From: Bradyrhizobium sp. SZCCHNS1050
GTDB taxonomy: Bacteria > Pseudomonadota > Alphaproteobacteria > Rhizobiales > Xanthobacteraceae
NCBI RefSeq assembly: GCF_032484785.1
Contig: NZ_JAUETR010000002.1
Coordinates: 1,240,001-1,304,000 of the forward strand
Direction: 5' to 3'
DNA: 64,000 nt
Below, in pieces: positions 7,554 through 59,837 of the stretch; the first letter of the stretch is position 1, and each line of letters starts with the position of its first letter. Under the pieces are notes generated by a model. It was not told the origin of the DNA. It made no database searches and worked only from the letters and a program-made list of their open reading frames with translations. The translations under genes and the position numbers were made by a program.

Positions 7554-8111
7554 TCACTGCCGGAACGGGAAATTGAATGCGGTCAGAAGGGCACGGGCCT
7601 CGTCGTCGGTCGTCGCGGTGGTGCACACCGTGATGTCCATGCCCCAGCTCTCCCCGGCCTTGTCGAAGTCGATCTCGGGGAAAATGATGTGCTCCTTGAT
7701 GCCGAGCGAATAGTTGCCGCGGCCGTCGAAGCTCTTCGGGTTCAGGCCGCGGAAGTCGCGGACGCGCGGCAGCGCGACGTTGATCAGGCGGTCGATGAAC
7801 TCGTACATCTTCGTCTTGCGCAAGGTGACCTTGCAGCCGATCGGCTGGTTCTCGCGCAGCTTGAAGGTCGCGATGGCGACGCGCGAGTAGGTCACGACCG
7901 CCTTCTGGCCGGCGATCAGCGACAGGTCGGCCGCGGCGGTTTCCGCCTTCTTACGGTCGTTCACGGCCTCGCCGATGCCCATGTTGAGCACGACCTTGTC
8001 GAGCCGCGGCACCTGCATGACGTTGGCGTAGCCGAACTTCTCGGTCAGCTGGCTCTTGATCGTGCGGTCGTATTCCGTGCGGAGGCGCGGGGTGTAAGCA
8101 GTCTCAGCCAT
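7554..8111 (-). CDS. rplE: 50S ribosomal protein L5
   Basis: L5 binds 5S rRNA and contacts S13 across the subunit interface. The 185-residue protein starts [20 protein letters not shown]; the ATG overlaps the last 8 nt of rplX, which favours this start over the longer open frame. Core motifs [15 protein letters not shown] and [21 protein letters not shown] are conserved. Confidence 0.97.
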
Positions 8112-8418
8112 CGATCTCAACTCCCGAGCTCTTGGCAACGCGGACCTTCTTGCCGTCCGCCTGAATCTTGAATCCGATGCGCGTCGGCTTGCCGTCCTTG
8201 CCGACATAAGCGACGTTCGACAGCTGGATCGGCGACTCCTTGCTGATGATGCCGCCCTCCTGGTTCTGGGTCTGCTTCTGGTGACGCTTCACCAGGTTGA
8301 TGCCCCGCACCAGCGCCGTCCCCTCGTCGGGACGCACCTCGAACACCTCGCCGGTGCGACCCTTGTCGCGACCGGTCAGGACGATCACCTTGTCGCCCTT
8401 GCGGATCTTGGCAGCCAT
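8104..8418 (-). CDS. rplX: 50S ribosomal protein L24
   Basis: L24 is one of the assembly-initiator proteins of the 50S subunit. The 104-residue protein starts [20 protein letters not shown], a KOW motif, and contains [20 protein letters not shown]. It overlaps rplN by 1 nt (TGATG) and rplE by 8 nt, implying translational coupling. Confidence 0.97.
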
Positions 8419-8786
8419 CACAGCACCTCCGGCGCAAGCGAAATGATCTTCATGTGGTTCTTGGCGCGCAGCTCGCGCGGCACCGGCCCGAAGATACGGG
8501 TGCCGACCGGCTCCGACTGGTTGTTGATCAGGACGGCCGCATTGCGGTCGAAGCGGATCACCGAGCCGTCGGCGCGGCGGATGTCCTTGCGGACGCGCAC
8601 CACGACGGCTTTCATGACGTCGCCCTTCTTCACCTTGCCACGCGGAATGGCTTCCTTGATCGACACCACGATGATGTCGCCGACGGTGGCATAGCGGCGC
8701 TTCGAGCCGCCCAGCACCTTGATACACATGACACGGCGTGCGCCGGAATTATCGGCCACGTCGAGGTTGGTCTGCATCTGAATCAT
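8418..8786 (-). CDS. rplN: 50S ribosomal protein L14
   Basis: L14 is at the subunit interface and is the docking site of the silencing factor RsfS in characterised bacteria. The 122-residue protein starts [20 protein letters not shown] and contains the [20 protein letters not shown] signature. Its stop codon shares one nucleotide with the rplX start. Confidence 0.98.
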
Positions 8787-8855
8787 TGATGCACCTCGTC
8801 CTCTTCATCTGCTGCGCAGGAAAGCTGCGCCTTGTTTGATCCCGAAAGCGAAACG

Positions 8856-8875
8856 GGCCCTCTTCGACGAGGGCC
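8856..8875 (-). promoter_or_regulatory. Small hairpin in the rpsQ-rplN gap
   Basis: A 7-bp perfect stem (8856-8862 / 8869-8875) with a 6-nt loop lies in the 101-bp space before rplN, one of the larger gaps in the spc segment. No T-tract follows. A processing or coupling role is possible but unproven. Confidence 0.35.
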
Positions 8876-8887
8876 GCGGTCCGCGCC

Positions 8888-9136
8888 TCAGGCGGTTTTC
8901 TTGTGCTCGCCCCGGACCACGGTCCAGCGCTTGAGCTTCGAGATCGGCTTGCTCTCCTCGATCCACACCATGTCGCCCGGCTTGAACTCGTTGTTCTCGT
9001 CGTGGGCGTGGTAGTTCTTCGAGCGGCGGATGGTCTTCTTGTAGATCGGGTGGGTGAAGCGCCGGTCGACGCGCACAACGATCGTCTTGGCCTGCTTGTC
9101 GCTGACGACGACGCCCTGAAGGGTCCGTTTCGGCAT
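8888..9136 (-). CDS. rpsQ: 30S ribosomal protein S17
   Basis: S17 is a primary binder of the 16S 5' domain. The 82-residue OB-fold protein starts [20 protein letters not shown] and contains [19 protein letters not shown] and the [18 protein letters not shown] signature. It follows rpmC by 10 bp. Confidence 0.97.
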
Positions 9137-9146
9137 GTCGAGCCTC

Positions 9147-9353
9147 TTACTTCGTCTTGGCGCGCTGCTGCGCGGCGATGGTCTTGATACGGGCGATGTC
9201 GCGGCGCGCCTCACGCAGCCGCGCGGTGTTCTCCAGCTGCCCGGTGGCACGCTGGAAGCGCAGGTTGAAGCGCTCCTTCTTCAGGTTGACGATCGCATCG
9301 TCCATCTGATCGGGGCTCATCGCGCGAATGTCGGCAATCTTCATCTCGGCCAT
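9147..9353 (-). CDS. rpmC: 50S ribosomal protein L29
   Basis: L29 lies by the polypeptide exit tunnel with L23. The 68-residue helical protein starts [20 protein letters not shown]. Two ATGs are possible: 9359, which overlaps the rplP stop as TAATG, and 9353. A GGAG motif lies 8 nt before 9353 but only 2 nt before 9359, so 9353 is chosen. Confidence 0.95.
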
Positions 9354-9358
9354 GACCA

Positions 9359-9772
9359 TTACTCCGCAATGCGCTCGACGAAGCGCGTCTTGATCGGCAG
9401 CTTGGCGGCCGCCAGCAGCAGCGCCTCGCGCGCGATCTGGTTGCTCACGCCGTCGATCTCGAACATCACCCGGCCCGGCTTGACGCGGGCCACCCACAAT
9501 TCAGGCGAGCCCTTGCCGGAGCCCATGCGGACTTCAGCCGGCTTCTTCGACACCGGGAGATCCGGGAACACGCGGATCCAGACGCGGCCGGCGCGCTTCA
9601 TGTGACGGGTCAAGGCACGACGGGCGGCCTCGATCTGGCGCGCGGTGACGCGATCCGGCTCCATCGCCTTCAGCCCGAACTGGCCGAAGGCCAGCGTCGC
9701 GCCCGAGGACGCAACGCCGTGAATACGGCCCTTATGCGCCTTTCGGAACTTGGTCTTCTTTGGTTGCATCAT
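9359..9772 (-). CDS. rplP: 50S ribosomal protein L16
   Basis: L16 organises the A-site tRNA region next to the peptidyl transferase centre. The 137-residue protein starts [16 protein letters not shown] and carries [20 protein letters not shown] and [19 protein letters not shown], the family signatures. Confidence 0.98.
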
Positions 9773-9812
9773 GGCTTTGAGCCCTCAAACCTGTCTTGTC
9801 GCGGCTGATCGA

Positions 9813-10523
<711 letters not shown>

Positions 10524-18376: not shown

Positions 18377-19019
18377 CTTGGCCTTCACCCTTCTCAACGT
18401 TCGCACGGAGACCGCGACCGGCTTCCGCAAATTCTGTTCGAGGTTCCCCGCCTCACCGGGCCGTTTCGCGCGATCAAAACCCACGCAAAACGAAATCGCG
18501 CCAACCGTCCATCGCTGAACGGAAAGCGCTTGACGCCACAGAGGACCGCGATCACCACCAGTCAGCTTGCGCTGGCGGGCGGCCTACCGAGGTCATGCAT
18601 CCGAAATTGGTCTCAGGAGAACGAGCTCGAGAGATCTAATATCGTTTTGGCATTGCCTAGCTATGATCGACAGCGTTTGAGCGGCATTCGTCGAGGGTGG
18701 TGCCCGTCCCGCCCGGTTTCGGGTGGTCTGGGTGATCCGTACCGACGCTGGCGAAGCTCACCGCCTGTCGTTGAGTGCCGGCCTTTTATAAGCGGTAAAT
18801 ATCCAAGTCAAGCAAAACGACGCCGCAGGACGCGCAAAGAAGCGCTTCTGGCCGCTGCGGTTTCCGGTCCCGATAGGGCCCCCGCCGTCCGAGGTATCTG
18901 CAGACCGCACAGCCCTGCGAGTGCAGGCGCCTCTCCAGCCCGGGACATGTCCAGAAACATCGAAGATAAGGCTTTTTTCGGCTTTGGCCGACAAGGATGG
19001 CGCCGCGACGAGGCGCCTG
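18377..19019. other. Intergenic region: rpsL leader and divergent upstream of the FAD oxidoreductase
   Basis: 643 bp without a supportable gene. It must hold the main promoter of the ribosomal string on the minus strand and the promoter of the plus-strand flavoprotein. The only convincing element I see is the candidate promoter at 18785-18811, which implies a leader of about 400 nt for rpsL. Confidence 0.6.
18785..18811 (-). promoter_or_regulatory. Candidate promoter of the str-S10-spc string
   Basis: TTGACT (18806-18811) and TATAAA (18785-18790) on the minus strand stand in a locally AT-rich patch of a GC-rich genome. The spacer is only 15 nt, shorter than the sigma-70 optimum, which lowers confidence. 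Confidence 0.4.
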
Positions 19020-20243
19020 GTGACAGAATATACCGACATTGCGATCATTGGCGGCGGCCTGAGCGGCTCGATCACGGCCGCCATGCTCGGAATGGCCGGC
19101 ATCCCCGCGATTCTCGTCGATCCCCACGCGGTCTCCCCGCCCGACTTTCGAATCGAGAAGATCTCCGGTGCCGAGCAGATCGGCCGATTCCGTCGCACCG
19201 GGATCGCCGACAAGGCGTTGACCCAAGCCACCCTGGCCCCGGAGAACTGGATCGCCCGATTCGGCTACGTGCTCGAACGGGCTCAGGTCCAGCAATACGG
19301 CATTCCGTATGATGCGCTCGTGACGGCGGTGCGCGACCAGATCCCAGGCGCTGTGACGCGAATCGTCGCCAAGGCCGTAGCGATCACGCCAACCGAGGAT
19401 CGCCAGTCGGTCGTGCTGTCCAACGGGCAGACGATCTCCGCCCGCCTCGTCGTGCTCGCCAACGGGCTGAACGTCGGGCTGCGGCACATGCTGGGAATCA
19501 CCCGCACGATCACCAGCCCCGCCCATTCGATCTCGATCGGGTTCGACCTGACGCCGGTCGGCCGTTCCGCCTTCCCATTCCCGGCCATGACCTATTTCCA
19601 GGAACGAGCCAAGGCGCGGGTGCCCTACATCACCCTGTTCCCGATCGGCGAGCGCATGCGGGCGAACCTGTTCGCCTACCGCGAGGTCGATGATCCCTGG
19701 CTTCGGGCGATCCGCCGCAACCCAGTCGAAACGCTGGCCGCCGCCCTGCCCGGCCTGCGGCGGATCACGGGCGAGTACGCCGTGAGCGGCGAGGTGCGGG
19801 TCCGGCCCGCCGATCTCACCATCAACAGCGGGTACCGCATGCCGGGTGTCGTGCTCGTCGGCGACGCCTTCTGCACCACCTGCCCCGTCACCGGCACCGG
19901 TTCCGACAAGGTGTTCACCGATGTCGAGCGCCTCTGCAACGTCCACATTCCGCGCTGGCTGGCGACTGACGGCATGGGCGAGGCCAAGATCGCGGCCTTC
20001 TATGCGGACCCGGTCAAGACGGCCTGCGATGCGTGGTCGCTCGAGAAGGCATGGAATTTCCGATCGGTCTCGATCGGGGCCAGCCCCTATTGGCAGGCGC
20101 AACGCTGGGCGCGCTTTGCCGTCTCGCTCGGCCGCGGGGTTCGGCAGCGGCTGACGAAGACCAATGCGCCGCTCAACGTCTATTCCTCGTCATCATCCTC
20201 CTCGTCGTCGTCCTCCTCGTCATCGCTGTCGTCGTCGGCCTGA
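19020..20243 (+). CDS. FAD-dependent oxidoreductase / monooxygenase-like protein with C-terminal poly-Ser tract
   Basis: I start at GTG (19020; VTEYTDIAIIGGGLSGS), with GAGG 7 nt upstream; an open frame continues 33 codons further. The N-terminal Rossmann GGGLSGS motif and the distal GVVLVGDAFCTTCPVTGTGSD segment are those of FAD-binding aromatic hydroxylase / halogenase-like flavoproteins. The substrate is unknown. The product is 407 residues. The last about 20 residues are almost all serine because the 3' end (20180-20243) overlaps the 3' end of the convergent ABC exporter, whose opposite strand encodes Asp/Glu there. Confidence 0.8.
   Translation: MTEYTDIAIIGGGLSGSITAAMLGMAGIPAILVDPHAVSPPDFRIEKISGAEQIGRFRRTGIADKALTQATLAPENWIARFGYVLERAQVQQYGIPYDALVTAVRDQIPGAVTRIVAKAVAITPTEDRQSVVLSNGQTISARLVVLANGLNVGLRHMLGITRTITSPAHSISIGFDLTPVGRSAFPFPAMTYFQERAKARVPYITLFPIGERMRANLFAYREVDDPWLRAIRRNPVETLAAALPGLRRITGEYAVSGEVRVRPADLTINSGYRMPGVVLVGDAFCTTCPVTGTGSDKVFTDVERLCNVHIPRWLATDGMGEAKIAAFYADPVKTACDAWSLEKAWNFRSVSIGASPYWQAQRWARFAVSLGRGVRQRLTKTNAPLNVYSSSSSSSSSSSSSSLSSSA
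20180..20243. repeat. TCN/NGA low-complexity tract shared by two convergent genes
   Basis: A run of TCN-type triplets (TCATCATCC, TCGTCGTCG) reads as poly-Ser on the plus strand and poly-Asp/Glu on the minus strand, and forms the 3' coding end of both genes. Such runs are prone to slippage. Confidence 0.85.
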
Positions 20244-22252
20244 TCCTGCCGGCTCGGCTGATGGCCCTGGTCATCCCAGAGCTTGCGATAGGTCCCATTC
20301 TTCGCCAAGAGCTCGGCGTGGCTGCCGCGCTCGATCGCCCGGCCGCCGGAGATGACGATGATCTCGTCCATCTCGACCACCGAGGTCAGGCGGTGGGTCG
20401 ACCAGATCATGGTGCGGCCCTTGGCGACCTTGAGCAGGGTGCGGTTGATCGCGGCTTCCGTGGTCTGGTCCAGCGCCGAAGTGGCCTCGTCGAGCAGCAG
20501 CACGGACGGGTTGCGGATGATGGCGCGGGCGATCGCGATGCGCTGGCGCTGTCCACCGGACAGCGTGTCGCCGCGCTCGCCGACGATGGTGTCGTATTTC
20601 TGCGGCAGGCTCATGATGTAGCGGTGGATCTCGGCCTTCTTGGCCGCCTCCTCCACCTCCGCGTCGGTGGCGCCCTCCTTGCCGAGCCGGATGTTCTCCC
20701 GCAGCGACATGTTGAACAGCATGTTGTCCTGGAACACCACGGCCATGCTGCCGCGAAGCGAATCGCGCGTCACCTTGCGGATGTCGACGCCGTCGATGGT
20801 GACGCGGCCTTCATCGGGTACGTAGAGCCGCAGGATCAGGTTGAGCAGCGTGCTCTTGCCCGAGCCCGACGGACCGACGATCGCGATCCGCTTGCCGACG
20901 TCGAGCTTGAGGCTCAGATTGTCGAGCACCGGCGTCTCGCTGCCCTCGTACTGGAAGGTCACGCGCTCGAAGGTGATGTCGTGGCTGATGCGGGGCAGAT
21001 CCGGCGCGCCCGGCCGGTCGGCGCCGCGGGTCGGCTCGTCCAACAGCTCCTGCATGTGCCGGATCGCGGCCGCCGAGGAGATCGACACCGGCACGAAATG
21101 CATGACATGGGCGATGTTGTAGGACACCTCCCAGAATGCGCTCTCGAAGGTGACGAAGGTGCCGATCGTGATCTGGCCCTTGGTGGCGAGATAGGCGCCG
21201 AGAGCGAGCACGACGAGATGCAGCAGCAGCACGGAGATCGTGACGGTGCGCTCGACCATGGTCGACAGGAACATCGCATCGGCCATCTTGCGCCGCGCCG
21301 CGTCGTTGCGGAAGCTGAACCAGCCGAATACCTTGCGGTGGAGGCTGAAGGCCTTGATGACGGCTTGCGCCGCGATGTTCTCCTGGATCACGCCGAGCAG
21401 CGACGCTTCGTTCAGTTTCTGCTCGTAATTGGCCTGAACCGCCTTCGGCGTCAGGATACGCGGGCCGATCAGGGTGATCGGAAACACCAGCAGCGCGATC
21501 GCAGCGAGCTGCCAGTTCAGGAACAGCATCAGAATGATGCCCGCAATCAGCTCGAGGAACGGCAGCACAGCGCTGTTGGCGAAACTCTTCACGACGTTCT
21601 CGAACGCCGACATGTCGACCGAGAAGCGCGACAGGATCTCGCCGCGCTTGGTACGCTGGAAATAGGCGGCCGGCAGGTTCTGCACGTGATCGAACAGACG
21701 GGTGCGAACGTCCGAGATGACGCAGGCCGCGAGCCGCGCATCCCAGCGCTCGTAGAGCACGGCAATGATCGAGGTGAAGATGCCCGCAGCGGCGAGCACG
21801 CCGAGGATGCGATAGAGCGCCTCGAAATCCTCTTCGCCGAGCGCATCGTCGATCAGGAACTTGAGGCTGAGCGGCATGATGACGTTGAACAGCGTCTCGA
21901 TCAGGACGCCGATCGACACGAAAGCCAGCATCTTCTTGTATCTGGCGAGCAGCGGCGAGACGAAGCCGTAGATGGTTGCAAGCGCACCTGCGGCCTCGCG
22001 GGCCGTGTAGACGACGAGATCCTCGTCGTCGTCATCATCGTCGAGGTCGAGGCCGGCCTCTTCACCGTCCTCCTCGTCATCGTCCTCATCGTCGCCGACG
22101 ACGTCAGCCGTCTCTGTCGCCGACGTCTTCGCTGTTCCGGGTTTTGGAACGGCAGGCACGGCCGCCGCCGGCCCCCGCTTGTCCAAATCATCGGCAGGAT
22201 CAGCTGCCGTTGCGGACGTCTGATTTCGCGGCGGTGAAGATTTGGGCGCCAT
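20180..22252 (-). CDS. ABC transporter, fused TMD-NBD exporter with acidic N- and C-terminal tails
   Basis: A half-size ABC exporter (MsbA/LmrA-like) expected to work as a homodimer in the inner membrane. Of 690 residues, about 105-395 form six membrane helices and 425-660 the ATPase: Walker A GPSGSGKST 460-468, Q-loop Q508, LSGGQ 564-568, Walker B with DEATSALD 588-595, H-loop H620. Residues 54-79 and 673-690 are almost entirely Asp/Glu, which is unusual for the family. The substrate cannot be read from sequence. It lies 238 bp downstream of the amine oxidase-methyltransferase gene on the same strand. Confidence 0.92.
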   Translation of the reverse strand: MAPKSSPPRNQTSATAADPADDLDKRGPAAAVPAVPKPGTAKTSATETADVVGDDEDDDEEDGEEAGLDLDDDDDDEDLVVYTAREAAGALATIYGFVSPLLARYKKMLAFVSIGVLIETLFNVIMPLSLKFLIDDALGEEDFEALYRILGVLAAAGIFTSIIAVLYERWDARLAACVISDVRTRLFDHVQNLPAAYFQRTKRGEILSRFSVDMSAFENVVKSFANSAVLPFLELIAGIILMLFLNWQLAAIALLVFPITLIGPRILTPKAVQANYEQKLNEASLLGVIQENIAAQAVIKAFSLHRKVFGWFSFRNDAARRKMADAMFLSTMVERTVTISVLLLHLVVLALGAYLATKGQITIGTFVTFESAFWEVSYNIAHVMHFVPVSISSAAAIRHMQELLDEPTRGADRPGAPDLPRISHDITFERVTFQYEGSETPVLDNLSLKLDVGKRIAIVGPSGSGKSTLLNLILRLYVPDEGRVTIDGVDIRKVTRDSLRGSMAVVFQDNMLFNMSLRENIRLGKEGATDAEVEEAAKKAEIHRYIMSLPQKYDTIVGERGDTLSGGQRQRIAIARAIIRNPSVLLLDEATSALDQTTEAAINRTLLKVAKGRTMIWSTHRLTSVVEMDEIIVISGGRAIERGSHAELLAKNGTYRKLWDDQGHQPSRQDQADDDSDDEEDDDEEDDDEE

Positions 22253-22490
22253 TCAACGAACCGATCCTGCACGGCCAGTATGACCGTAACGGATTAAAGC
22301 GGCTCGGCTTTACCACCTGTGTCCGCCTGCCGCCAGCATTCTCGCCATACGGTGCCGCACCCGCCGCGACCAAGACGCGGCCCTGTCACGCAACCAGCAC
22401 GGTCACAAGCGCCGCGGACGCAAGACAGCATCGAGATGCCGGTCAACGCCCGCGGCCCTGCCTCGAAATGCCGGCGGCTGTGCCGCGAGC

Positions 22491-24554
22491 CTAGTCTTCG
22501 TCCTCGACCTTGTCGAAGAACGAATAGCGCAGGCTGTCGGCGTCGGCGTACCACTGGCCGGGCCCCTTGTTGGCCGCGAGTGTCGCTGCCCACACCTCGT
22601 CGGTGCAATCGCGGCGGTGCATGGCCAGATCGAACCCGTTGCCGAAGAACAGCTCCGACCACTCCCACCAGGTGCCGAGCTTCTTGACCCCACGCAGCAG
22701 GTCGTAGCGGTCGACCAGCGCCGGAGCCATGTCCGAGGTGATCGAGCCGAACACGAGGCCGGTCTTGACGACGCGGTTGAGCTCGCGGATCGCGCGCGCA
22801 ACCTGCTTGTCACCGAGATGGCAGAGGCTGGTCTCGAACACGAAATCGAACTCACCGGTCTTGAATGGCATATCGGTGATCGAGCCGAGCTTGTTGTATT
22901 TCCTCAGCGCCTTCGGCGTCTTGCCATGGATGTAGCGGTTGTTCTCGATGCCCCAGGCATCGATGCCGCGCTCGCGGAGCGCTCCCACCAGTTCACCGCT
23001 CGCGGAGCCGGCGACCAAGAGCTTGTAGCCTTTGCCCTTGCCGGCCCGGTTCCAAACGATCTTGATCAGGCTGGTCAGATAGTCCGGATCGGTGAACTGC
23101 GACCACGCTTCGCTGTACGGCCCCTGCCCGCGATAATTGTCGAAATAGTCACGGTCGATCTTGTCGGACAGCGGCGTTTCGGCCTGCGAGCGGGCGCGGC
23201 GCAGCCGCATCATTTCGGTCAGGATGATGTCGGTGGCGGCGTCCGACGAATCGAGCAGCCCGTTCAGGGTCGAGTCGAACAGATAGTCACCGACCACGAC
23301 GATGCCGGGGTGCTCCTTCGGCTCAGGCCGGTGATTGGTCATGACGTCGCGTACCGGCAGACCGCCGGGCAGCGCGTTGACGGACGACAGCCAGCGGTGG
23401 ATCTTGCCTTCCATGAAGTGTGCGCGCGCGTCGCCGAGCGCAGCAGGGAGCGACTTCAGCGCGGCATCGATCAGCTCCTGGTCCGAGAGGTTGGCGAAGG
23501 CGAGCGCATCCGAGCCCGCGATCAGCCAGTTGAGCACGCCGTGCTTGCCGACATCGTGGCGCGAGCCCTCGTTGTAGATGCAGCAGCCGCCGAACGCCTC
23601 CGACATGAACCAGGAGCCCGGAATCTTCTCGCCCCAGAACGGCTCGTCGAACAGGATCGAGACGCGCAGATAATGCGCGGGACGATCGAAATAGGCGATG
23701 TGCTTGACCATGGACTGGCGCAGCTTCTCGCCCTCCCAGCCGACCGTCGACAGCCAGGAATGCGGCAGGCACACCAGCACGAGATCGAACTCGCGCGTCT
23801 CCGGCCCCTTGCCGTTCATCATGTTGAGCCGGTAGCGACCCGCCTCGGTCTTGCCGATGCGGAGCACGCGATGATTGAGCTGGATGTCGGCATCGACCTC
23901 GGAGCGCAGGCACTCGATCAGTTGCTCGTTGCCGTTCTGAATCGAGTACAGGCCGATATAGTCGTCGATATCCATGACGAAGTTCTTGAGCGCATTGAGG
24001 CCGTTGGTGTTGTGGGCCTCGGTCGCGAGGTCGGAGCGCGACATCACCTTGAAGAAGCGCTTGGCCGTGGGATCCTCGACCTCCTCGTCGAGCAGCTCTT
24101 CGCAGGTCTTGTAGGCCCAGGGGTGCTCGTTATCGTGGGCGCCGACGCCCTCGTAATATTCGACCGGCGACATCACGTCGGTACAACGCTTGCGGAACGC
24201 CTCGACCGCAGCGGCCGTCTTCGGGCCGTATTTGCGGCGCAGCCCCGGCACGTCGTCGAGCAGCTCGCCGTCGAGTTGCACCTGCAGCGCATCCATCGGA
24301 ATCGTCTGCAGCCCGAAATGCTGGATCAGCTCGCGCAGCGGATCAGGGCCGGTCATCGAGTAGTCGTAGATTTCTGCGACACCAGCCTCATACATCGCCG
24401 GTGCGGTATCGAACTTGCGCGTCACGATCTTGCCGCCGAGCCGGTCGGATGCCTCGTAGATCGTCACCTTGCAGAGATCGCCGAGTTTGCGCCTCAGATA
24501 CCAGGCGCTCATCAGGCCACCCGGACCGCCACCAACAATCGCAAGGTCAAGCAT
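22491..24554 (-). CDS. Flavin amine oxidase fused to a methyltransferase-like domain
   Basis: Start chosen at MLDLAIVGGGPGGLMSAWYL (24554); the frame is open for 77 further codons but they lack homology. Residues 1-450 form an FAD/NAD(P)-binding amine oxidase: GGGPGG at 8-13, YEASDRLGGK at 33-42 and the C-terminal FAD segment GIVVVGDYLFDSTLNGLLDS at 417-436. Residues about 508-605 look like a class I SAM methyltransferase: KLLVAGSASGELVGALRERG (motif I), then an acidic residue at 537 (GIENN) and GEFDFVFETSLCHL. Motif I lacks the usual acidic residue, so activity is uncertain. The product is 687 residues; substrate unknown. Confidence 0.85.
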   Translation of the reverse strand: MLDLAIVGGGPGGLMSAWYLRRKLGDLCKVTIYEASDRLGGKIVTRKFDTAPAMYEAGVAEIYDYSMTGPDPLRELIQHFGLQTIPMDALQVQLDGELLDDVPGLRRKYGPKTAAAVEAFRKRCTDVMSPVEYYEGVGAHDNEHPWAYKTCEELLDEEVEDPTAKRFFKVMSRSDLATEAHNTNGLNALKNFVMDIDDYIGLYSIQNGNEQLIECLRSEVDADIQLNHRVLRIGKTEAGRYRLNMMNGKGPETREFDLVLVCLPHSWLSTVGWEGEKLRQSMVKHIAYFDRPAHYLRVSILFDEPFWGEKIPGSWFMSEAFGGCCIYNEGSRHDVGKHGVLNWLIAGSDALAFANLSDQELIDAALKSLPAALGDARAHFMEGKIHRWLSSVNALPGGLPVRDVMTNHRPEPKEHPGIVVVGDYLFDSTLNGLLDSSDAATDIILTEMMRLRRARSQAETPLSDKIDRDYFDNYRGQGPYSEAWSQFTDPDYLTSLIKIVWNRAGKGKGYKLLVAGSASGELVGALRERGIDAWGIENNRYIHGKTPKALRKYNKLGSITDMPFKTGEFDFVFETSLCHLGDKQVARAIRELNRVVKTGLVFGSITSDMAPALVDRYDLLRGVKKLGTWWEWSELFFGNGFDLAMHRRDCTDEVWAATLAANKGPGQWYADADSLRYSFFDKVEDED

Positions 24555-24892
24555 CGAAGTTCCGCCATCTCCGGCTGTCAGCGACGTTGCCGGTCGTCCA
24601 TACAGGGGTCCTGCCACCCTCGGGGCTCGATCGGCCATAGCGTAACCGGCCCGCAAAAGATTTGCGCCGGAGCAAATCGGCGCATCGCCACGGGAATCGA
24701 CGGAAATCAGCTCAGCGGATCTGATGCTTCCAAAAGCGCCTCTGTCCCTGAAGGGAAGATGAACAACGGGGCAGCAGCGCGGCAACAGGAGAAGAAAATG
24801 TCAAAAAAAGGCCGGCAAACGCCGGCCTTTTCTACACGCGATGAACGCACGGCAGACCCCGACACCGTCGGGGTCATGCCGCAACCGTCCGT
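24555..24892. other. Intergenic region between rpoC and the amine oxidase-methyltransferase gene
   Basis: 338 bp. It contains the upstream region of the fusion gene on the minus strand and the rpoC terminator at 24803-24832. I see no convincing promoter or small gene. Confidence 0.6.
24803..24832 (-). terminator. Rho-independent terminator after rpoC
   Basis: On the minus strand AAAAGGCCGGC and GCCGGCCTTTT arms form a GC-rich stem closed by GTTT and followed by a T7 run, 60 bp after the rpoC stop. The A-run on the other side makes it potentially bidirectional. Confidence 0.9.
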
Positions 24893-29092
<4,200 letters not shown>

Positions 29093-35561: not shown

Positions 35562-36209
35562 TCAGCCCTTCGGACAGGCCGCTCCGGCGTCGGCCCAGGC
35601 CTTGATCAGCTCGCCGAACTGCTTCTGGGTTCCCGGGGCCGGGGTCCGCCCAGCTCCCGGATTCCAGCCCCAGCCGACCAGCTCATCCTCAGCCATATGG
35701 TGAATCAGCTGCGCCATGGTCTTGCCGCCGTTGCGATTTGGATCCTTGATCTGTGCGCAGATCTGGCCGAGCGACTTGCCCTGCCAAGCCATCTCGATCG
35801 GGGCCAGCTGCCACTTGGGATTACCGGGCACGCGCGCCGCGTCGAAATTGGCCTCGTGGTGGCAGGTCGTGCAGGCGAGCCCGCCGGGCGCACCCATGCC
35901 AGCCTCGCCGCGGACCACCAGCGGCTGATGCGGAATCATCCTATCGGTCTGGGTCGGCCGGTCGCCGGCCGGGTGGCAGTTCATGCATCGCGGCGACTGC
36001 AGCACCTTGCCGGCCTCTTCGAACAGCGCCACGGCGCGCTCGTCCTTGCTCTTGATCCTGGCGAAGTCCGCCACCGGCTTGAGCCCGCCGGCGACGTGCG
36101 TGGCCTCGGGCGCCGCATCGGCGCGCCGCAGTGCCGGCAGGGCTACGATCGCAACCGCAGCCAGGCTGCCAGCGAGCAGCGCCATCGTCGCCGTTCTGAA
36201 CGGGCTCAT
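35562..36209 (-). CDS. Diheme c-type cytochrome, electron acceptor of the molybdenum hydroxylase
   Basis: A 215-residue exported protein starting MSPFRTATMALLAGSLAAVA, a membrane-targeting signal. Two haem sites are visible: CMNCH at 75-79 and CTTCH at 113-117. The start overlaps the stop of the upstream molybdopterin subunit gene (ATGA), so the two are translationally coupled. Such cytochromes take electrons from periplasmic xanthine dehydrogenase-family enzymes toward the respiratory chain; that role is inferred from the operon. Confidence 0.85.
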   Translation of the reverse strand: MSPFRTATMALLAGSLAAVAIVALPALRRADAAPEATHVAGGLKPVADFARIKSKDERAVALFEEAGKVLQSPRCMNCHPAGDRPTQTDRMIPHQPLVVRGEAGMGAPGGLACTTCHHEANFDAARVPGNPKWQLAPIEMAWQGKSLGQICAQIKDPNRNGGKTMAQLIHHMAEDELVGWGWNPGAGRTPAPGTQKQFGELIKAWADAGAACPKG

Positions 36210-38386
36210 GCGGTGTCTCCCGGCCGGATCGGCAGTTGGGTCGGGCGCGGCAGACCCAGCCTGGCCATGGCGTTGGCGACGGCAGGTCCCAGCGGCGGCA
36301 CGCCGGGCTCGCCGACTCCCGAGGGTTTCTCGGTCGACGGCACGATCGCAACCTCGATCTGCGGCATCTCGTGGATGCGCAGCGAGCGGTAGGTGTCGAA
36401 ATTGCCCGACACCGGTCGTCCCTCGTCGAGCGGCTGCTGCGCATAGAGGATGTGGCCGAGCGCAAAGCCGATGCCGCCCTCCATCTGGGCGCGGATGATG
36501 TCGGGATTGACTGCGACGCCGCAGTCGACAGCGCACCACACCTTGTGCACGACCGGTCCGTCGGCCCCCATCGACAGCTCGACCACCTGGGCGACGTAGG
36601 TGTTGAAGCTCTCGACCACGGCAACGCCGCGGGCGCGGCCCGCCTCGAGCTTGGCGCCCTTCCAGTCCGCGAGCTCGGCGACCGCCTTGAGCACACCGGC
36701 GTGACGCGGCTTGTCGGCCATCATCGCCAGTCGTCCCTCCACAGGATCCTGGCCGGCGGCTTCGAGCAACTGATCGACGAACGCCTCGACGGCGTAGCCA
36801 GTATGGGTGTGGCCGACCGAGCGCCACCACAGCACGGGCACGCCGACATCGACCTGATGCAGGTCGCAGCGGAAATTCGGCACCTGGTAAGGGATCTCGT
36901 TGGAGCCCTCATAGGCCGTCGAATCGAGGCCGTTCTTCATGGTCATCGCCTCAAACGGCGAGCCCTTCATGATCGACTGCCCGACGATCGTATCCGACCA
37001 CGCCACGATCTTGCCGTCGCGGACCACACCGCGCATTCGGTGCAGGCTGAATGGTCGGTAGTAGCCGCCGCGCATGTCATCCTCACGGGTCCACACCAGC
37101 TTGACCGGACGTCCCGGCCCGATCGCCTTGGCGACCTGCGCCAGCTCCATGGCGACGTGGGTCGACTGCTGCGCCCGCCGGCCGAAGCTGCCGCCGGCGA
37201 GAATCGTCTTGAGATCGACTTTGGCGATGTCGAGCCCAAGCACCTGCGCGATCACGGCGTGATCAGGCGTCGGAAACTGGCTGCCATAGCGCGCCGAGGC
37301 GGTATCGCCCTTCCAGTGAATGAAGGCGTTGATTGGCTCCATCGGCGCATGGGCCAGATAGGGAAAGACGAACTCGGTCTCGATCAGCTTGCCGCCCTTG
37401 GCGATCTCGGCGTCAACGTCGCCCTCCTGCTTCACCAGGGCGCCCTGCTTCTTCGCACGGGCGCGAAACTCCTCCAGCAGTTGCGCCGTGCCGCGCGTCT
37501 CCGCCTTGCTGTCGTCCCAGGTGATCTTGAGAAGGTCACGTGCCGTCTTCGCCGGCCAGAACCCCTCGGCATAGACGGCTACACCGTTCGGCACCTCCTT
37601 GACGTCGACCACTCCCGACACGGCCTTGGCCGCCGACGCGTCGAACGACGCCACCGTGCCGCCGAACCGCGGCGAGCGCGCCACCAACACGGTCAACGTC
37701 CCCGGATCCTTGATGTCGAGCGTGTACTCGGCCGAGCCGTTCGACTTCGCCACGCTGTCGAGCCGGGTTACAGCGCCTTCCTTGCCGATCAGCTTGAAGG
37801 CGGAGGAATCCTTGAGCTGCGGGTTCGCCGGCACCGGCTGTTGCATCGCCTTGGCGGCCAGCGCGCCGAAACCGCTCTGCTTGCCGGAGGGATGTCTGAC
37901 GATGCCTTTGTCGACCGTGATCTCCTCAGCCGGCACCTTCCATTCGTCGGCGGCCGCGGCCACCAGCATCGCGCGCGCGGCAGCGCCGACCTTGCGCATC
38001 TGCTCGTAGGAATTGGCGATTGCGCTGGAGCCGCCGGTACCCTGCACCCCGAACAGCAGGTTTTTGTAGAGCACCGGATTCGAGGGCGCATGATCGGCGC
38101 GCATCTGCGACCAATCGGCATCGAGCTCCTCGGCCACCAGCGTGGCCATGCCGGTGAACGGGCCCTGCCCGAACTCGATGTGCTTGCAGAGAACGGTGAC
38201 GGTGTCGTCCTGGCCGATCACAAGGAACGTGTTCGGCGCGATGTTGACGGACTTCGCCGCGTCTTGCGCGTAAGCGACACCATTGCGGGCGACATAGGTG
38301 GCGAGCGCCAGCCCCGCTCCCGCCTTCAGCAGCGAGCGGCGGGACAATGTCGGAGCGGACGTGGCGGGCTTCATATGCACATTCAT
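36206..38386 (-). CDS. Periplasmic molybdopterin-binding subunit, xanthine dehydrogenase / isoquinoline 1-oxidoreductase family
   Basis: The 726-residue catalytic subunit of a molybdenum hydroxylase of the IorB/aldehyde oxidoreductase type. Residues 15-21 (SRRSLLK) with the following hydrophobic stretch form a twin-arginine signal, so the folded cofactor-loaded enzyme is probably exported. Family segments include GGSFGRRAQQSTHVAMELAQ and the C-terminal KPSGVGEPGVPPLGPAVANA, which includes the conserved Glu near the Mo site. GGAGG lies upstream of the ATG. The substrate (aldehyde, N-heterocycle or other) cannot be assigned. Confidence 0.88.
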   Translation of the reverse strand: MNVHMKPATSAPTLSRRSLLKAGAGLALATYVARNGVAYAQDAAKSVNIAPNTFLVIGQDDTVTVLCKHIEFGQGPFTGMATLVAEELDADWSQMRADHAPSNPVLYKNLLFGVQGTGGSSAIANSYEQMRKVGAAARAMLVAAAADEWKVPAEEITVDKGIVRHPSGKQSGFGALAAKAMQQPVPANPQLKDSSAFKLIGKEGAVTRLDSVAKSNGSAEYTLDIKDPGTLTVLVARSPRFGGTVASFDASAAKAVSGVVDVKEVPNGVAVYAEGFWPAKTARDLLKITWDDSKAETRGTAQLLEEFRARAKKQGALVKQEGDVDAEIAKGGKLIETEFVFPYLAHAPMEPINAFIHWKGDTASARYGSQFPTPDHAVIAQVLGLDIAKVDLKTILAGGSFGRRAQQSTHVAMELAQVAKAIGPGRPVKLVWTREDDMRGGYYRPFSLHRMRGVVRDGKIVAWSDTIVGQSIMKGSPFEAMTMKNGLDSTAYEGSNEIPYQVPNFRCDLHQVDVGVPVLWWRSVGHTHTGYAVEAFVDQLLEAAGQDPVEGRLAMMADKPRHAGVLKAVAELADWKGAKLEAGRARGVAVVESFNTYVAQVVELSMGADGPVVHKVWCAVDCGVAVNPDIIRAQMEGGIGFALGHILYAQQPLDEGRPVSGNFDTYRSLRIHEMPQIEVAIVPSTEKPSGVGEPGVPPLGPAVANAMARLGLPRPTQLPIRPGDTA

Positions 38387-38388
38387 GA

Positions 38389-38853
38389 TCAGCCCTCCAA
38401 CGTCTTGGCTGCGGTATGGATGGCAGCGCGGATGCGCACATAGGTGGCGCAGCGGCAGATGTTGCCGTTCATCGCGAGATCGATGTCCTCATCGGTCGGC
38501 TTGGGATTAAGGCCGAGCAGCGCGACCGCGCTCATGATCTGGCCGGACTGGCAGTAGCCGCATTGGGGCACGTCGAGTGCCGCCCAGGCCTTCTGCACGG
38601 CCGCACCTTCCTTGCCGCTCAGCCCTTCGATGGTGGTGATCTCGCTCTTGCCCACCGCCGACACCGGCAGCGAGCAGGAGCGAACGCTCTGGCCGTCGAG
38701 ATGCACGGTGCAGGCACCGCACTGCGCCACGCCGCATCCGTATTTGGTGCCGGTCAGCCCGGCATTGTCCCGGATCGCCCATAACAAGGGCGTATTCGGG
38801 TCGACGTCGATCTGATGCTCGCGCCCGTTGATCTTGAGGGTGAACGCCGCCAT
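38389..38853 (-). CDS. [2Fe-2S] subunit of the molybdenum hydroxylase
   Basis: A 154-residue IorA/CoxS-type iron-sulfur protein that passes electrons from the Mo centre. The plant-ferredoxin-type cluster ligands are C40, C45, C48 and C60; the second cluster uses C98, C101, C133 and C135 ([16 protein letters not shown]). It is the first gene of a three-gene operon followed by the Mo subunit (2 bp) and the diheme cytochrome. It has no signal peptide, consistent with export bound to the Tat-signalled partner. Confidence 0.92.
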
Positions 38854-39017
38854 GCCGCTCTCCTGAATTGCAGGAGAGGAACTTAGAAGCGTTTGAAAAT
38901 CACTCGCAATTCACAGAGGCGTGCAGTGCGTCAGAATATTTCTGCACCACGCGTGGAACTTATCTGCGGTCTGCGCGTTTGGCGTTGCGGTGCTGGGGGA
39001 GCGCCATCTGCGCTTGC

Positions 39018-39968
39018 CTATCCGACCCGAAACGGCAGTGGCTCCCCTGCAAAGAACGCCGTGAGATTGGCCACCACGCATTCCTGCATCGCCACGTGAG
39101 ACTCGCGGGTGTTGCCGCCGATATGCGGCGTGACCACCACGTTCTGCAACGACGTCAGCCCATCCGGGGCGTGCGGCTCGGTTTCGAATACGTCGAGCCC
39201 GGCGCCAGCGATGATGCCGTCCTTCAGCGCTGAAAGCAGCGCCCTTTCGTCGATCACGGAGCCACGCGAGATGTTGACGACATGGCCGTCGGGCCCGATC
39301 TTCTTCAGGAGATCGGCATCGACGACGTGCGTGGTCTCCGCGCCGGCGCGGACCGCGATCATCAGCACGGTGCACCATTCGGCCAAGGCATCAAGGCTTG
39401 AAAAATACTGATACGGCAGATCGTCGTGGCGCGTGCGGCTGAAATAGCCGACCTCGGTCTCGAAAGCGGCGACGCGCGCGGCGATCTTGCGGCCGATTTC
39501 GCCCATCCCGTAGACGCCGACCTTGCAGCCGGACAGACCAGGCGGCGGCTTCAACAGCGGCGACGGCCGGGCCTCCACCCAGCCACCGGTGCGCACATAG
39601 GAATCCGCCGCCGTCAACCGCCGCACGCTCGCCAGCATCAGCATGAGCGCGATATCGGCGACCGCTGCAGCGTTCGCGCCGGGACTATGGCCGACCACGA
39701 TATTGCGCGCCGCGGCCGCCTTCAGGTCGACGCCATCATAGCCCGTGCCGTAACAGACGATGGCCCCGAGCGCCGGCAGCCGGTCCATGTCGTCGGCCCC
39801 CAGAGGCGTGCCGCCGGCTGTGATCAGGGCGCGGATCTGCGCAACCTCCGCCGCCGGAAACACCTCGTGCGCCGGCGTGCCGCCGCTGTCGAGCAGCTCG
39901 AAGCGATCGGCGAAGCGCTGGGTCAGCGACTTCGGCAGGCGGGAATAGATCAGGACCTTCTCGGGCAT
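39018..39968 (-). CDS. D-isomer-specific 2-hydroxyacid dehydrogenase
   Basis: A 316-residue NAD(P)-dependent dehydrogenase. The Rossmann motif GMGEIG is at 154-159; the catalytic Arg is R235 (NISRGSVIDE), Glu in GLDVFETEPH near 262, and His282 in TPHIGG. The closest functional class is probably glyoxylate / hydroxypyruvate reductase, but substrate is not determined. The gene starts 35 bp after the phosphatase-kinase gene and may be cotranscribed with it. Confidence 0.88.
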   Translation of the reverse strand: MPEKVLIYSRLPKSLTQRFADRFELLDSGGTPAHEVFPAAEVAQIRALITAGGTPLGADDMDRLPALGAIVCYGTGYDGVDLKAAAARNIVVGHSPGANAAAVADIALMLMLASVRRLTAADSYVRTGGWVEARPSPLLKPPPGLSGCKVGVYGMGEIGRKIAARVAAFETEVGYFSRTRHDDLPYQYFSSLDALAEWCTVLMIAVRAGAETTHVVDADLLKKIGPDGHVVNISRGSVIDERALLSALKDGIIAGAGLDVFETEPHAPDGLTSLQNVVVTPHIGGNTRESHVAMQECVVANLTAFFAGEPLPFRVG

Positions 39969-40003
39969 CGGGATTACCTATTCGGGCGGTCGCACGTCGC
40001 CAC

Positions 40004-41716
40004 TCAGTGTCGCGTCAGCAGGCTCAGCAGAATGATGATGATGATGAATTGAAGCGCGCAGAGCATCCTCCAGAACAACAGCGGATTGCGGTCGTGAAGC
40101 GAGCGACGCTTGGCGATCGCCGGACCCGCCCATGACGCACCGTTCTCCAACTCGTGGGCGAATTCGATGGCATCACCGTAACGCTGTGCAGGATCGACGT
40201 TCAACGCCTTTCCGATCACGGCGTCGAGCCAGGCCGGCAGTTCCGGCCGGTAGCGTGAAATCGGCACCGGTTTGCCGAAGCGCGGGCGCGAGAACGGCTC
40301 GATCTCGCCGAACGGATAAGAGCGCGTGAACATGCGGTAGACGGTGACGCCGAGGGCGAACAGGTCGGACGCTTCGTCACCCGGCTTACCGGCGAACAGC
40401 TCCGGCGCCATGTAGCTCGGGGTCCCCGGAATATCCTCGGCCGGAAAGTCCTCGAACCGCGGCACGCGCGCGACCCCGAGATCGATCAGGCGCAAGCCGC
40501 CGTTCTCGAGCAGGATCACGTTGTCCGGCTTGATGTCGCGATGGATGATGCCGGCCCGGTGCAACGCCACCACCGCGCGCACGAGCTTGGTCGCGATCGC
40601 GGTGCCCTCCGCAAGCGACAATCGGGGCGGCCGGTTCAGACGCTGCTCGAGCGTCTCCCCCGCGTAGAATGGCATTGCCGAATAGAGCCGGGTCTGGCGC
40701 TCGACGGGAAGCTCGATGATCTCGCCGATCCAGATGCTGCGCACACGCGCGGCGACCCAGGCTTCGCGAATGAACGCCAGGCGGAACGAACCTTCGCTCG
40801 CGACGCGCGGATGCGGAAATTTCAGGACGACCTCCCTGTCACCCTGCCCCGCGTCGATCGCCTTGAACAGCCGGGAGTAGCGGCCATCGGAAAGGATATC
40901 GCCAAGCCGGAATCCGTCGATCACGTCACCGGGCGAAGGCAGCTCGCCGATCGGCAGGGACGAGATCGAACCTGTGAGCTCGTCGCGGTCGGCCGGCGGA
41001 AGATCGACGACGTCGAGCACCAGCGCCGTCGAATTGTCGTTGCTGCCGGCCGCAAGGGCGGCGGCGACGATTCCCCGCGCGGAATCCTCCGGGGGAGTCC
41101 GTTCGGCCAGGATCTCCTGAAGGCGCGAATCCGGCAGGATGCCGTGGATCCCGTCGCTGCAGATCAGAAACCGGTCGTGCTGACGCATGCCGAGCGTCGT
41201 GTAGTCGAAGCGGGCGAACTGCTCGAAACCGATGCCCCGGTTGAGGACGTGGGCAAGGTCAGCGCGGCCCGCGACATGGTCGGTCGTCAGACGCTCGAGG
41301 CGCCCTTCGCTGAGGCGATAGACGCGAGTGTCCCCGACGTGGACGACGTGGCAGGTTCGCCGCGACAGCACCACCGCGGAGAAGGCGCAGCTCATTCCAT
41401 GCAACTCGGGGTCGACGCGGCCCTGCGCATGGATCCAGCTATTGATGGCTTCCAGCGCACGCGCGGCTCGGCTTCGCACGCCCGCCGTCTCGGGCAGAGA
41501 ATGATAGGCATCGATGAAGCCGCGGACGGCGAGCTCCGCCGCCTCGCGCCCACCCTTGTGGCCGCCGACGCCGTCGGCGACGGCGGCGACGATATCGCGA
41601 TCCGTCGCCCCCTGCAGGCCAAGGCGGGCGCCGACGTAATCCTCATTGTTCGGTCGCTTGCCGGTCTCGCTAGCGAAGCCGACGCGAACCTGAAGATTGC
41701 GATGCGCGCCGGCCAC
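40004..41716 (-). CDS. Protein phosphatase 2C / serine-threonine kinase fusion, membrane-anchored
   Basis: A 570-residue bifunctional signalling protein. Residues about 8-238 form a PP2C phosphatase (AVADGVGGHKGG at 45-56, HVGDTRVYRL, CSDGIHG at 186-192, SNDNSTALV). Residues about 268-540 form a Hanks-type kinase: K299, E318, HRDIKPDN 392-399, DLG 412-414 in place of DFG, and APE 437-439. The Gly-rich loop is weak (ILSDGRYSRLF). The extreme C-terminus (about 550-567) is one hydrophobic segment, so the catalytic domains should face the cytoplasm. It lies 38 bp after narK on the same strand. A similar protein is next to nitrate assimilation genes in Pseudomonas, from memory. Confidence 0.92.
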   Translation of the reverse strand: MAGAHRNLQVRVGFASETGKRPNNEDYVGARLGLQGATDRDIVAAVADGVGGHKGGREAAELAVRGFIDAYHSLPETAGVRSRAARALEAINSWIHAQGRVDPELHGMSCAFSAVVLSRRTCHVVHVGDTRVYRLSEGRLERLTTDHVAGRADLAHVLNRGIGFEQFARFDYTTLGMRQHDRFLICSDGIHGILPDSRLQEILAERTPPEDSARGIVAAALAAGSNDNSTALVLDVVDLPPADRDELTGSISSLPIGELPSPGDVIDGFRLGDILSDGRYSRLFKAIDAGQGDREVVLKFPHPRVASEGSFRLAFIREAWVAARVRSIWIGEIIELPVERQTRLYSAMPFYAGETLEQRLNRPPRLSLAEGTAIATKLVRAVVALHRAGIIHRDIKPDNVILLENGGLRLIDLGVARVPRFEDFPAEDIPGTPSYMAPELFAGKPGDEASDLFALGVTVYRMFTRSYPFGEIEPFSRPRFGKPVPISRYRPELPAWLDAVIGKALNVDPAQRYGDAIEFAHELENGASWAGPAIAKRRSLHDRNPLLFWRMLCALQFIIIIILLSLLTRH

Positions 41717-41754
41717 GCCTGAACACCTTGCCTATGGAGCGACGGCGCGTCGGT

Positions 41755-43014
41755 TCAGACGCGCGCGCCGGAAACGGCGCCCCACGTGGTGCGCCAACGG
41801 ACCTTGACCATGGCAAGTCCGACGAAGCCGAGCAATGCCAGCAAACCAAAGAACAGGAAGCCGGCCCCGAATCCGCCGGTCATTCCCTTGGCCGTGCCGA
41901 GCGCCTGGGCGAGGAAGAATCCGCCGATGCCGCCTGCGCAGCCGACGAGACCGGTCATCAGGCCGATCTCGTGGCGGAAGCGCAGCGGAATGAGCTGGAA
42001 CACCGCGCCGTTGCCCATCCCGAGCGCGAGCACGCCGACCGAGAACAACAGCACCGAAATCCACGCAATGCGTGGCATGTTCATGAGCTCCCAGCCTGCC
42101 TGGGTCGGCGCAGCCGGCCCTTCCGGCATGAAGGCGATCACGACATAGGCGGCGACCACAATGCCAAACAGGATCGAGAGCGACCGGATGCCACCGATCC
42201 GGTCCGCAATGAGACCGCCCACCGGACGGAAGCCGGAGCCGAAAGCGACGATCAGCGCCACCAGCAATCCGGCCGCCACTCCGGAGACATGATACTGCAC
42301 CGAGAAGTACAGCGGCAGGGCGTTGGCGAGGCCGACGAAGCCGCCGAAGGTGATGAAGTAGAAGAACATGAACCAGCGGCTGTCGGGATCGCGCAGCAGG
42401 CCGCCATAGGCCTTGAGCGAGACCGGCTTGCGTTCACCGGGCGCATCCTTCGCGGCGACGATGTAGTAGATCAGGACCATGACCATCGGGATGAGCAGCA
42501 CCCCGAAAACGGCCTGCCAGCCCCAATGTTCGGCGATGGTCGGCGCGAGCAGCGTGTCGAGCACGACGCCCATGTTTCCGGCCCCTGCGATCCCCATCAC
42601 GATGCCCTGATACTGCGGCGGATACCAGCGGCTGGCCTGAGGCAGCGCGACGGCGAACGAGGCGCCGCCGATGCCGAGCACGACGCCGAACAGCTCGACG
42701 GCCAGCTTGCTGGGGAGTCCGAAATAGGCAACGCAGGCGGTCGCCGTCATGACCACCAGCTGCGCGATCACGCCCGTGCGCTTGGCGCCGATGATGTCGG
42801 CCAGAATGCCCATGGGAACACGCAGCAGCGCGCCTGCCAGCACGGGGATCGCGACCAGCGTGAACTTTTCGTTGACCGCAAGATTCATGTCGCGGGCGAC
42901 ATAGACGATCAGCGGTCCGAGTGCGACCCAGGCCATGAAGCTGATGTCGAAATAGAGGAAAGCAGCCAGCAGTGTCGGCCAATGACCGGCCTTCTTGAAG
43001 TCGTCGAGCTTCAT
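41755..43014 (-). CDS. narK: NarK/NasA-type nitrate/nitrite MFS transporter
   Basis: A 419-residue, 12-helix major facilitator protein importing nitrate and/or exchanging nitrite. The start is MKLDDFKKAGHWPTLLAAFL (43014) with GAGG upstream; the frame is open for 48 further unlike codons. Diagnostic features are R65, the nitrate signature GAGNMG at 144-149 and the second Gly-rich signature GCAGGIGG in helix 11. A candidate sigma-54 promoter lies about 130 bp upstream. Confidence 0.93.
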   Translation of the reverse strand: MKLDDFKKAGHWPTLLAAFLYFDISFMAWVALGPLIVYVARDMNLAVNEKFTLVAIPVLAGALLRVPMGILADIIGAKRTGVIAQLVVMTATACVAYFGLPSKLAVELFGVVLGIGGASFAVALPQASRWYPPQYQGIVMGIAGAGNMGVVLDTLLAPTIAEHWGWQAVFGVLLIPMVMVLIYYIVAAKDAPGERKPVSLKAYGGLLRDPDSRWFMFFYFITFGGFVGLANALPLYFSVQYHVSGVAAGLLVALIVAFGSGFRPVGGLIADRIGGIRSLSILFGIVVAAYVVIAFMPEGPAAPTQAGWELMNMPRIAWISVLLFSVGVLALGMGNGAVFQLIPLRFRHEIGLMTGLVGCAGGIGGFFLAQALGTAKGMTGGFGAGFLFFGLLALLGFVGLAMVKVRWRTTWGAVSGARV

Positions 43015-43141
43015 GGTCTCAAACCTCGTGACGCAGGCGCGCGCGAGCAGGCTCGGCAGGAGCTGCGTAAAGGGGACAAATTGTCGGGTGAGTTGAGCGG
43101 CGGTCTCGTCGTTGAGATACGCCCGGTCCTGCCCGCCTTTC

Positions 43142-43158
43142 AGCAAGTTTCGCACCAA
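43142..43158 (-). promoter_or_regulatory. Candidate sigma-54 promoter of narK
   Basis: TTGGTGCGAAACTTGCT on the minus strand matches the -24/-12 consensus YTGGCACGNNNNTTGCW at most positions, with the invariant GG and GC exactly 10 nt apart. It would start transcription about 118 nt before the narK ATG. Confidence 0.6.
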
Positions 43159-43454
43159 CTTGGGTGATTCACGTTTTTCTCAACCCGTACCGGCGCTTGG
43201 GACTTCGAAGCCGCAGTTCTACGGATCGCTGATGCTCAACATGAACGCAGAGCCCGCCTGCACCGCGCGCACACTGATGGCTTTTTGAGCGCCCGCCGAA
43301 GCCGACGCGATCGGTACTCGAACGGAAGGGCCTCCATCGAGGATGCACATAATCTGATCTGCCGCGGCTACTATTTGAGCGCAGGTGTCGCCAGCGGCGC
43401 GCGCAAGCGGCGGCTCAACCCTTGAATTACCGCGATTTCCGGCGACGACCCGAA

Positions 43455-43470
43455 TGGCACGAGATTTGAA
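43455..43470 (+). promoter_or_regulatory. Candidate sigma-54 promoter of nirB-nirD-nasA
   Basis: TGGCACGAGATTTGAA matches the -24 element perfectly (TGGCACG) but has GA instead of GC at -12. The predicted start is about 135 nt before nirB. Confidence 0.45.
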
Positions 43471-43550
43471 TTAGTTGGCTCGCGACCGTCATTGGCGACG
43501 ATCAGCTCTGCCCGCAGTTGGGCCTCCCCCAAAATTCAAACATGACCACA

Positions 43551-43600
43551 GCGACCGATGGGCCGATGCCCGTTCGCGTCGCCGCTGGATGTCGCTGGCA
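43551..43600 (+). promoter_or_regulatory. Hairpin in the nirB leader
   Basis: GGGC and GCCC close a CGAT loop inside longer imperfect CAGC-GAC and GTCGCCGCTG arms. It may be a leader regulatory hairpin such as those bound by NasT in other rhizobia, but the typical hexaloop signature is not visible. Confidence 0.3.
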
Positions 43601-43615
43601 TTCGAAAGGCAGACC

Positions 43616-46398: not shown

Positions 46399-46408
46399 AC
46401 GGTATCGC

Positions 46409-59765: not shown

Positions 59766-59837
59766 GCGTTGGCCGAACGGACCTGGATCACGATGCGCTT
59801 CCAAGGAAACGCATCATGATCTCATCTCTTTTTGTTT

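Follow-up and report, generated by a model that had tools for sequence, protein, structure and literature searches.

The fusion gene and its domains

The window analysed here (64,000 nucleotides in its whole length, from the 7.6 Mb genome of Bradyrhizobium sp. SZCCHNS1050, a soil bacterium with soybean symbionts among its relatives) carries a gene for a protein that joins a flavin oxidoreductase domain to a class I S-adenosylmethionine (SAM) methyltransferase-like domain, hereafter the fusion. The order of genes on the minus strand, in the direction of transcription, is rpoB, rpoC, fusion, ATP-binding cassette (ABC) exporter, rpsL, rpsG, fusA and tuf, where rpoB was named from its size and position and rpsL was recognised by eye from its sequence. 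The fusion starts with ATG at 24554 and ends with the stop codon at 22491-22493 on the minus strand; an initial annotation, made from the sequence of the window, gave exactly these limits and no strand. The mechanical open reading frame (ORF) extends upstream to TTG at 24785, and alignments of the window's clade start downstream of it, at MLDLAIVGGG-like N-termini. A scan of 22200-24950 found no promoter-like site; terminator-like sites numbered five, compared with a mean of 1.4 (standard deviation 1.1) in shuffled sequence. Separate transcription is possible, since one of the five (24684-24663, minus) lies between rpoC and the fusion.

Pfam analysis of the protein bore out the two-domain architecture proposed in the initial annotation. 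Amino_oxidase (PF01593) matched residues 12-433 with 106.9 bits (cut-off 19.8), Methyltransf_11 matched residues 515-599 with 34 bits (cut-off 21.2) and Methyltransf_25 scored 28.6 bits (cut-off 27); NCBIfam gave nothing above a cut-off among the 24 matches listed. Among the nearest paralogs fetched from the same genome, the best oxidase-profile score was 29.8 bits against 901 for the fusion and the best methyltransferase-profile score 47.3 bits against 370. NCBIfam at E<=1e-20 (E, expect value) named one of the seven paralogs scanned, as MetW. The predicted full-length model had a mean local confidence (pLDDT) of 73 and a global score (pTM) of 0.64. Residues 424-428, 460-466, 604-648 and 665-687 were below 50, and the methyltransferase domain was therefore modelled alone, from an alignment of 32 rows of which at least two (P0275, P0283) are apparently out of frame in places and were kept. 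Sequences L051, L059, L042, L011, L013 and L020 were left out of the structure alignment.

Table 1. Coordinates of the fusion, its parts and its neighbours in the window.
Feature	Position	Strand	Basis or remark
Whole fusion gene	22491..24554	-	687 amino acids
Flavin oxidoreductase domain, residues 1-450, PF01593 fold	23205..24554	-	Pfam, predicted structure
Codon of Arg297, which aligns with the Lys of MAO-A and putrescine oxidase	23664..23666	-	Alignment
Variable linker, residues 451-500	23055..23204	-	dN/dS 0.35 (385/400 pairs usable), mean entropy 0.88
Class I SAM methyltransferase-like domain, residues 501-687	22494..23054	-	Pfam, predicted fold
Atypical motif I LLVAGSASGELVG, residues 512-524	22983..23021	-	Sequence, family survey
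Half exporter of ABCB/MsbA type, constant neighbour downstream of the fusion in the window's clade	20180..22252	-	Domain and relative searches
rpoC, closest gene conserved upstream of the fusion in the window's clade	24893..29092	-	Locus comparison
FAD_binding_3 (UbiH-like) monooxygenase, optional neighbour	18921..20243	+	Between exporter and rpsL

Distribution and evolution of the fusion family

A total of 2215 proteins were found at E<=1e-3 among 7997 scored candidates in a database search with the fusion sequence, and all 120 of them that were listed contain both PF01593 and PF08241; the fusion is therefore not due to chance. A four-row profile search gave 1426 proteins at E<=1e-10 among about 8000 scored candidates. 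A genome scan found 245 relatives, of which 80 were kept, and none of these 80 loci fell out in a length test (top match >600 residues and an open frame of >=640 amino acids). The test is lax: in L051 (a Rhodoblastus metagenome-assembled genome, MAG; 7638-10123) a second frame encodes the C-terminal end of the protein, and in another relative (G024:C1:5999027-6001077) the gene occupies two frames, the split near residue 348 being a sequencing error or a recent break.

Analysis of a 28-row tree, in which long branches were flagged (L051 above all), revealed two clades split at 100/100 support. Clade A, the window's clade, comprises Bradyrhizobium, Rhodopseudomonas, Nitrobacter, Tardiphaga and related MAGs, and the window fusion groups in it with Bradyrhizobium tropiciagri and B. 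mercantei (100/98 support). Clade B comprises Xanthobacter, Methylocystaceae, Rhodoblastus, Hyphomicrobium, Desertibaculum and others, several of them known from MAGs only; seven of its fusions are 40-46% identical to the window protein. The fusion is real, and the family survey found it in 28 of 100 genomes and 13 of 47 genera. A broad distribution was rejected: two of 289 genomes of the class matched at E<=1e-20, one of them being that of the window itself; eight of 299 genomes of the phylum matched at E<=1e-15, again with the genome of the window among them and every one from the same family; and the plasmids searched gave no match at E<=1e-20.

The antisense translation P0001 was dropped before sequences were counted, and for residue conservation identical sequences were also removed. 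The median pairwise ratio of nonsynonymous to synonymous substitution rates (dN/dS) among 71 sequences of the window's clade was 0.12 for the oxidase (400/400 random pairs usable) and 0.19 for the methyltransferase (398/400). The fast-evolving linker (Table 1) would suit two domains that act on different substrates and are fused for co-expression or stability only. We consider such an arrangement quite improbable, as the fusion is kept in both clades. Furthermore, a search with the methyltransferase part alone gave 258 proteins, and no independent stand-alone methyltransferase family was recognised among the 120 listed, not each of which was checked; these 120 are 66-88% identical to that part, many with a partial oxidase or on short contigs.

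The methyltransferase domain

The separately modelled C-terminal domain showed a predicted Rossmann methyltransferase fold, in agreement with the class I assignment of the initial annotation, and a misread C-terminal part or a non-methyltransferase fold was thereby ruled out. Motif I had been called atypical, and the family survey showed in what way: the acid before GxGxG is absent, its place being taken by valine or isoleucine in 240 of 240 window-clade sequences and by histidine, glutamine or asparagine in all 12 sequences of the second clade. The central position of GxGxG is alanine (Ala518) in 239 of the 240 sequences of the window's clade. The acid at the end of beta-2 is present, as Glu537 in 251 of 252 sequences and as aspartic acid in the remaining one. 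Gly516, Gly520 and Glu537 are nearly invariant, and conservation is much higher at the pocket positions than in the remaining methyltransferase core. The predicted fold and part of the motifs are common to the small-molecule and RNA class I methyltransferases LahSB, CgnL, METTL6, RebM and TylM1, from which the fusion differs in a motif I without the acid and in Ala518 within GxGxG. The methyltransferase half offers a natural case for testing how much drift in motif I is compatible with a conserved pocket.

The flavin domain

The N-terminal domain belongs to the PF01593 superfamily by its score above the curated cut-off, its flavin adenine dinucleotide (FAD) motif and its predicted fold. PF01266 (DAO) scored 21.3 bits, below its cut-off of 27.9, and a viral fold library gave general flavin-enzyme and methyltransferase matches only. 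Fold and FAD motifs are shared with monoamine oxidase (MAO), putrescine oxidase and protoporphyrinogen oxidase, although identity to the structural relatives compared is just 13-21% and the fusion differs from these enzymes in its attached methyltransferase and in one residue of the flavin domain. In monoamine and polyamine oxidases a lysine near flavin N5 is catalytic. The lysine of MAO-A and putrescine oxidase aligns with Arg297 of the fusion, which is invariant in 252 of 252 aligned sequences. The name flavin amine oxidase in the initial annotation thus holds for the superfamily, whereas a typical amine oxidase is doubtful because of this arginine. A true amine oxidase, with deamination of an amine by one domain and N-methylation of this or a competing amine by the methyltransferase, would fit the presence of MAO and putrescine oxidase among the best sequence and fold relatives; with Arg297 in place of the lysine, we regard it as improbable.

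Genomic context and the exporter

In 19 of the 20 loci read, the fusion is flanked by rpoC on its upstream side and by the exporter on its downstream side, the exception (L040) belonging to clade B. The gene rpsL was seen in 17 of the 19 clade-A loci, the stretch fetched for L030 and L031 not including it. Comparison of the rpoC-rpsL interval in 16 of the 19 revealed that no gene but the fusion and the exporter is common to all of them; other genes intervene between rpoC and the fusion in four. The FAD_binding_3 gene is present in five of the 20 loci.

The exporter, a partner that the initial annotation did not mention, is built as a half exporter from an ABC_membrane and an ABC_tran domain; of its 187 NCBIfam matches, the 25 listed include none that exceeds its cut-off. 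Among relatives of solved structure the best are of ABCB type and include multidrug, bile-salt and phosphatidylcholine translocators, with MsbA ranking lower, and this relationship leans towards an amphipathic substrate. An ortholog (74-100% identical) occurs in 27 of the 100 family genomes, the same genomes as the fusion except G041. Within genus g20, G083 has fusion and exporter, and G061 and G019 have neither. The rpoC-rpsL interval of G061 retains two other genes common with G083 and gave no fusion or exporter at E<=1e-6, which suggests that the two were lost jointly at least once; the G019 contig ended before this interval. Pieces of FAD_binding_3 in two frames, as if decaying, were also seen in G061 (L127:4278-5419).

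Eight clade-B loci were examined (L042 and seven of the ten found in the genome scan). In all eight, a protein of 278-298 amino acids lies directly downstream of the fusion (for example L043:10240-11112). It has no credible Pfam match and, by eye, a hydrophobic C-terminal stretch; the Xanthobacter copy is 29-38% identical to the others. Assignment to DUF155/RMD1 was rejected, as none of the eight members matched DUF155 at E<=1. An hhalign comparison offered no more than a weak lead, with 28% probability across 65 columns at the C-terminus; one unrelated control scored 0.2%. A search of the window's genome for such a partner, run without a positive control, gave no match at E<=1.

Proposed function

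Our analysis tentatively favours, with somewhat less than even confidence, a bifunctional tailoring enzyme whose product the adjacent exporter moves. The N-terminal domain would bind FAD and dehydrogenate or oxidise a hydrophobic, possibly lipid-like substrate, and may be closer to protoporphyrinogen-oxidase or carotenoid/acyl-desaturase relatives than to monoamine oxidase. The C-terminal domain, with a non-canonical but conserved SAM site, would methylate the same molecule or its product, and in clade A the product would pass to the ABCB-type half exporter and so out of or across the membrane. It is plausible that one molecule is both oxidised and methylated, and fusion and exporter probably make and export a small molecule. 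With somewhat more reserve, we consider it possible that this is an undescribed exported metabolite or membrane lipid of the lineage of Bradyrhizobium, Rhodopseudomonas and Nitrobacter; the fusion, as a flavin-dehydrogenase/methyltransferase with a non-canonical SAM site, would make it and a dedicated ABCB-type transporter would move it, both encoded at a locus fixed near rpoBC. Domain composition, predicted folds, conservation and the linkage and co-occurrence of fusion and exporter are observed, whereas cofactor binding, the two activities, a common substrate of lipid-like nature and its export are inferred.

Several results weigh against this proposal. In clade B the exporter is not the neighbour of the fusion and another protein stands there, and G041, the sole clade-B genome among the 100, has no exporter match. 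Six of the 27 exporter matches contain one stop codon in the matched span (three of these six read as ORFs of 660-689 amino acids). Co-occurrence inside one clade may reflect shared descent and few independent events, and ABCB relatives export non-lipids too. Foldseek superpositions of the methyltransferase model are modest, the best having a TM-score of 0.48, a root-mean-square deviation of 10.6 and E 6.6e-10. The position that we take to be that of the usual adenine-binding acid is serine or threonine in 240 of 240 window-clade sequences. Of 252 sequences scanned, all 251 in which motif I could be read lack its acid, and dN/dS is 0.23 in the methyltransferase core (399/400 pairs) against 0.13 in its C-terminal part (386/400); a faster-evolving core could mean a non-catalytic role. 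The last two results point to a pseudo-methyltransferase that would retain the fold, perhaps a SAM/S-adenosylhomocysteine sensor or scaffold, beside a flavin domain that alone is catalytic. This is rather unlikely in our view, given the conservation of the pocket over the rest of the core and the near invariance of Gly516, Gly520 and Glu537.

According to the initial annotation, no characterised enzyme has this arrangement. A relevant case is MnmC, whose domain order is the reverse of that in the fusion and which is not known to have an exporter partner. MnmC is a characterised single polypeptide of an FAD oxidase and a Rossmann SAM methyltransferase that act sequentially on one substrate, the tRNA wobble uridine (PMC3648344). 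The fusion follows a similar logic. The statement thus has to be qualified, although the flavin family differs: the MnmC flavin domain is glycine-oxidase-like (PMC3648344), whereas that of the fusion is PF01593 with DAO below cut-off, and for this reason the fusion is not MnmC.

A special case of the tailoring-and-export proposal would be a lipid-modifying enzyme analogous to UfaM and UfaD, adding a methyl group to an acyl or polyprenyl chain that the flavin domain desaturates, with the exporter as flippase. PMC7380195 describes UfaM, a SAM methylase, and UfaD, a NAD/FAD phytoene-desaturase-like protein, as acting in turn on membrane acyl chains (those of phospholipid fatty acids) in one furan fatty acid pathway of alphaproteobacteria including Rhodopseudomonas, where R. 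palustris has the homologs as separate genes. The joint use of a methylase and a flavin desaturase resembles the logic of the fusion, and the ABCB/MsbA kind of exporter would fit; however, the fusion is one protein adjoining an exporter, the likeness is one of pathway logic, and R. palustris JSC-3b carries the fusion too (L114), which would make it a second system. We therefore hold this special case to be unlikely.

No study of the fusion was recognised in the literature searched, judged from titles and abstract openings, and this real, conserved two-domain architecture comes with a co-inherited exporter. In B. diazoefficiens USDA110, the literature assigns bll5404 to ribosomal protein S7 and bll5409/bll5410 to RNA polymerase beta-subunit genes; fusion and exporter would fall between bll5404 and bll5409. 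A literature search for bll5407 and bll5408 gave no match, only bll5409 being matched. The gene pair is conserved in agriculturally important nitrogen-fixing symbionts and in phototrophs, and its tight enzyme-exporter link predicts a shared metabolite.

Other features of the window

The ribosomal gene cluster seems to be interrupted by a nitrate assimilation island: the stretch 36206-49093, between the genes for ribosomal proteins L10 (34330-35049, minus) and L1 (49226-49918, minus), contains molybdenum-hydroxylase-like genes together with genes for a NarK-like nitrate transporter, a nitrite-reductase-like protein and a molybdopterin oxidoreductase. Adjoining the NarK-like transporter, an ORF at 40004-41716 (minus) has matches to a PP2C phosphatase (residues 19-234) and to a Ser/Thr kinase (residues 269-527), both below NCBIfam cut-offs. 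The stretch 58097-60842 contains two neighbouring ORFs on the minus strand, one for a transposase (58097-59791) and one of the APH phosphotransferase family (59886-60842).
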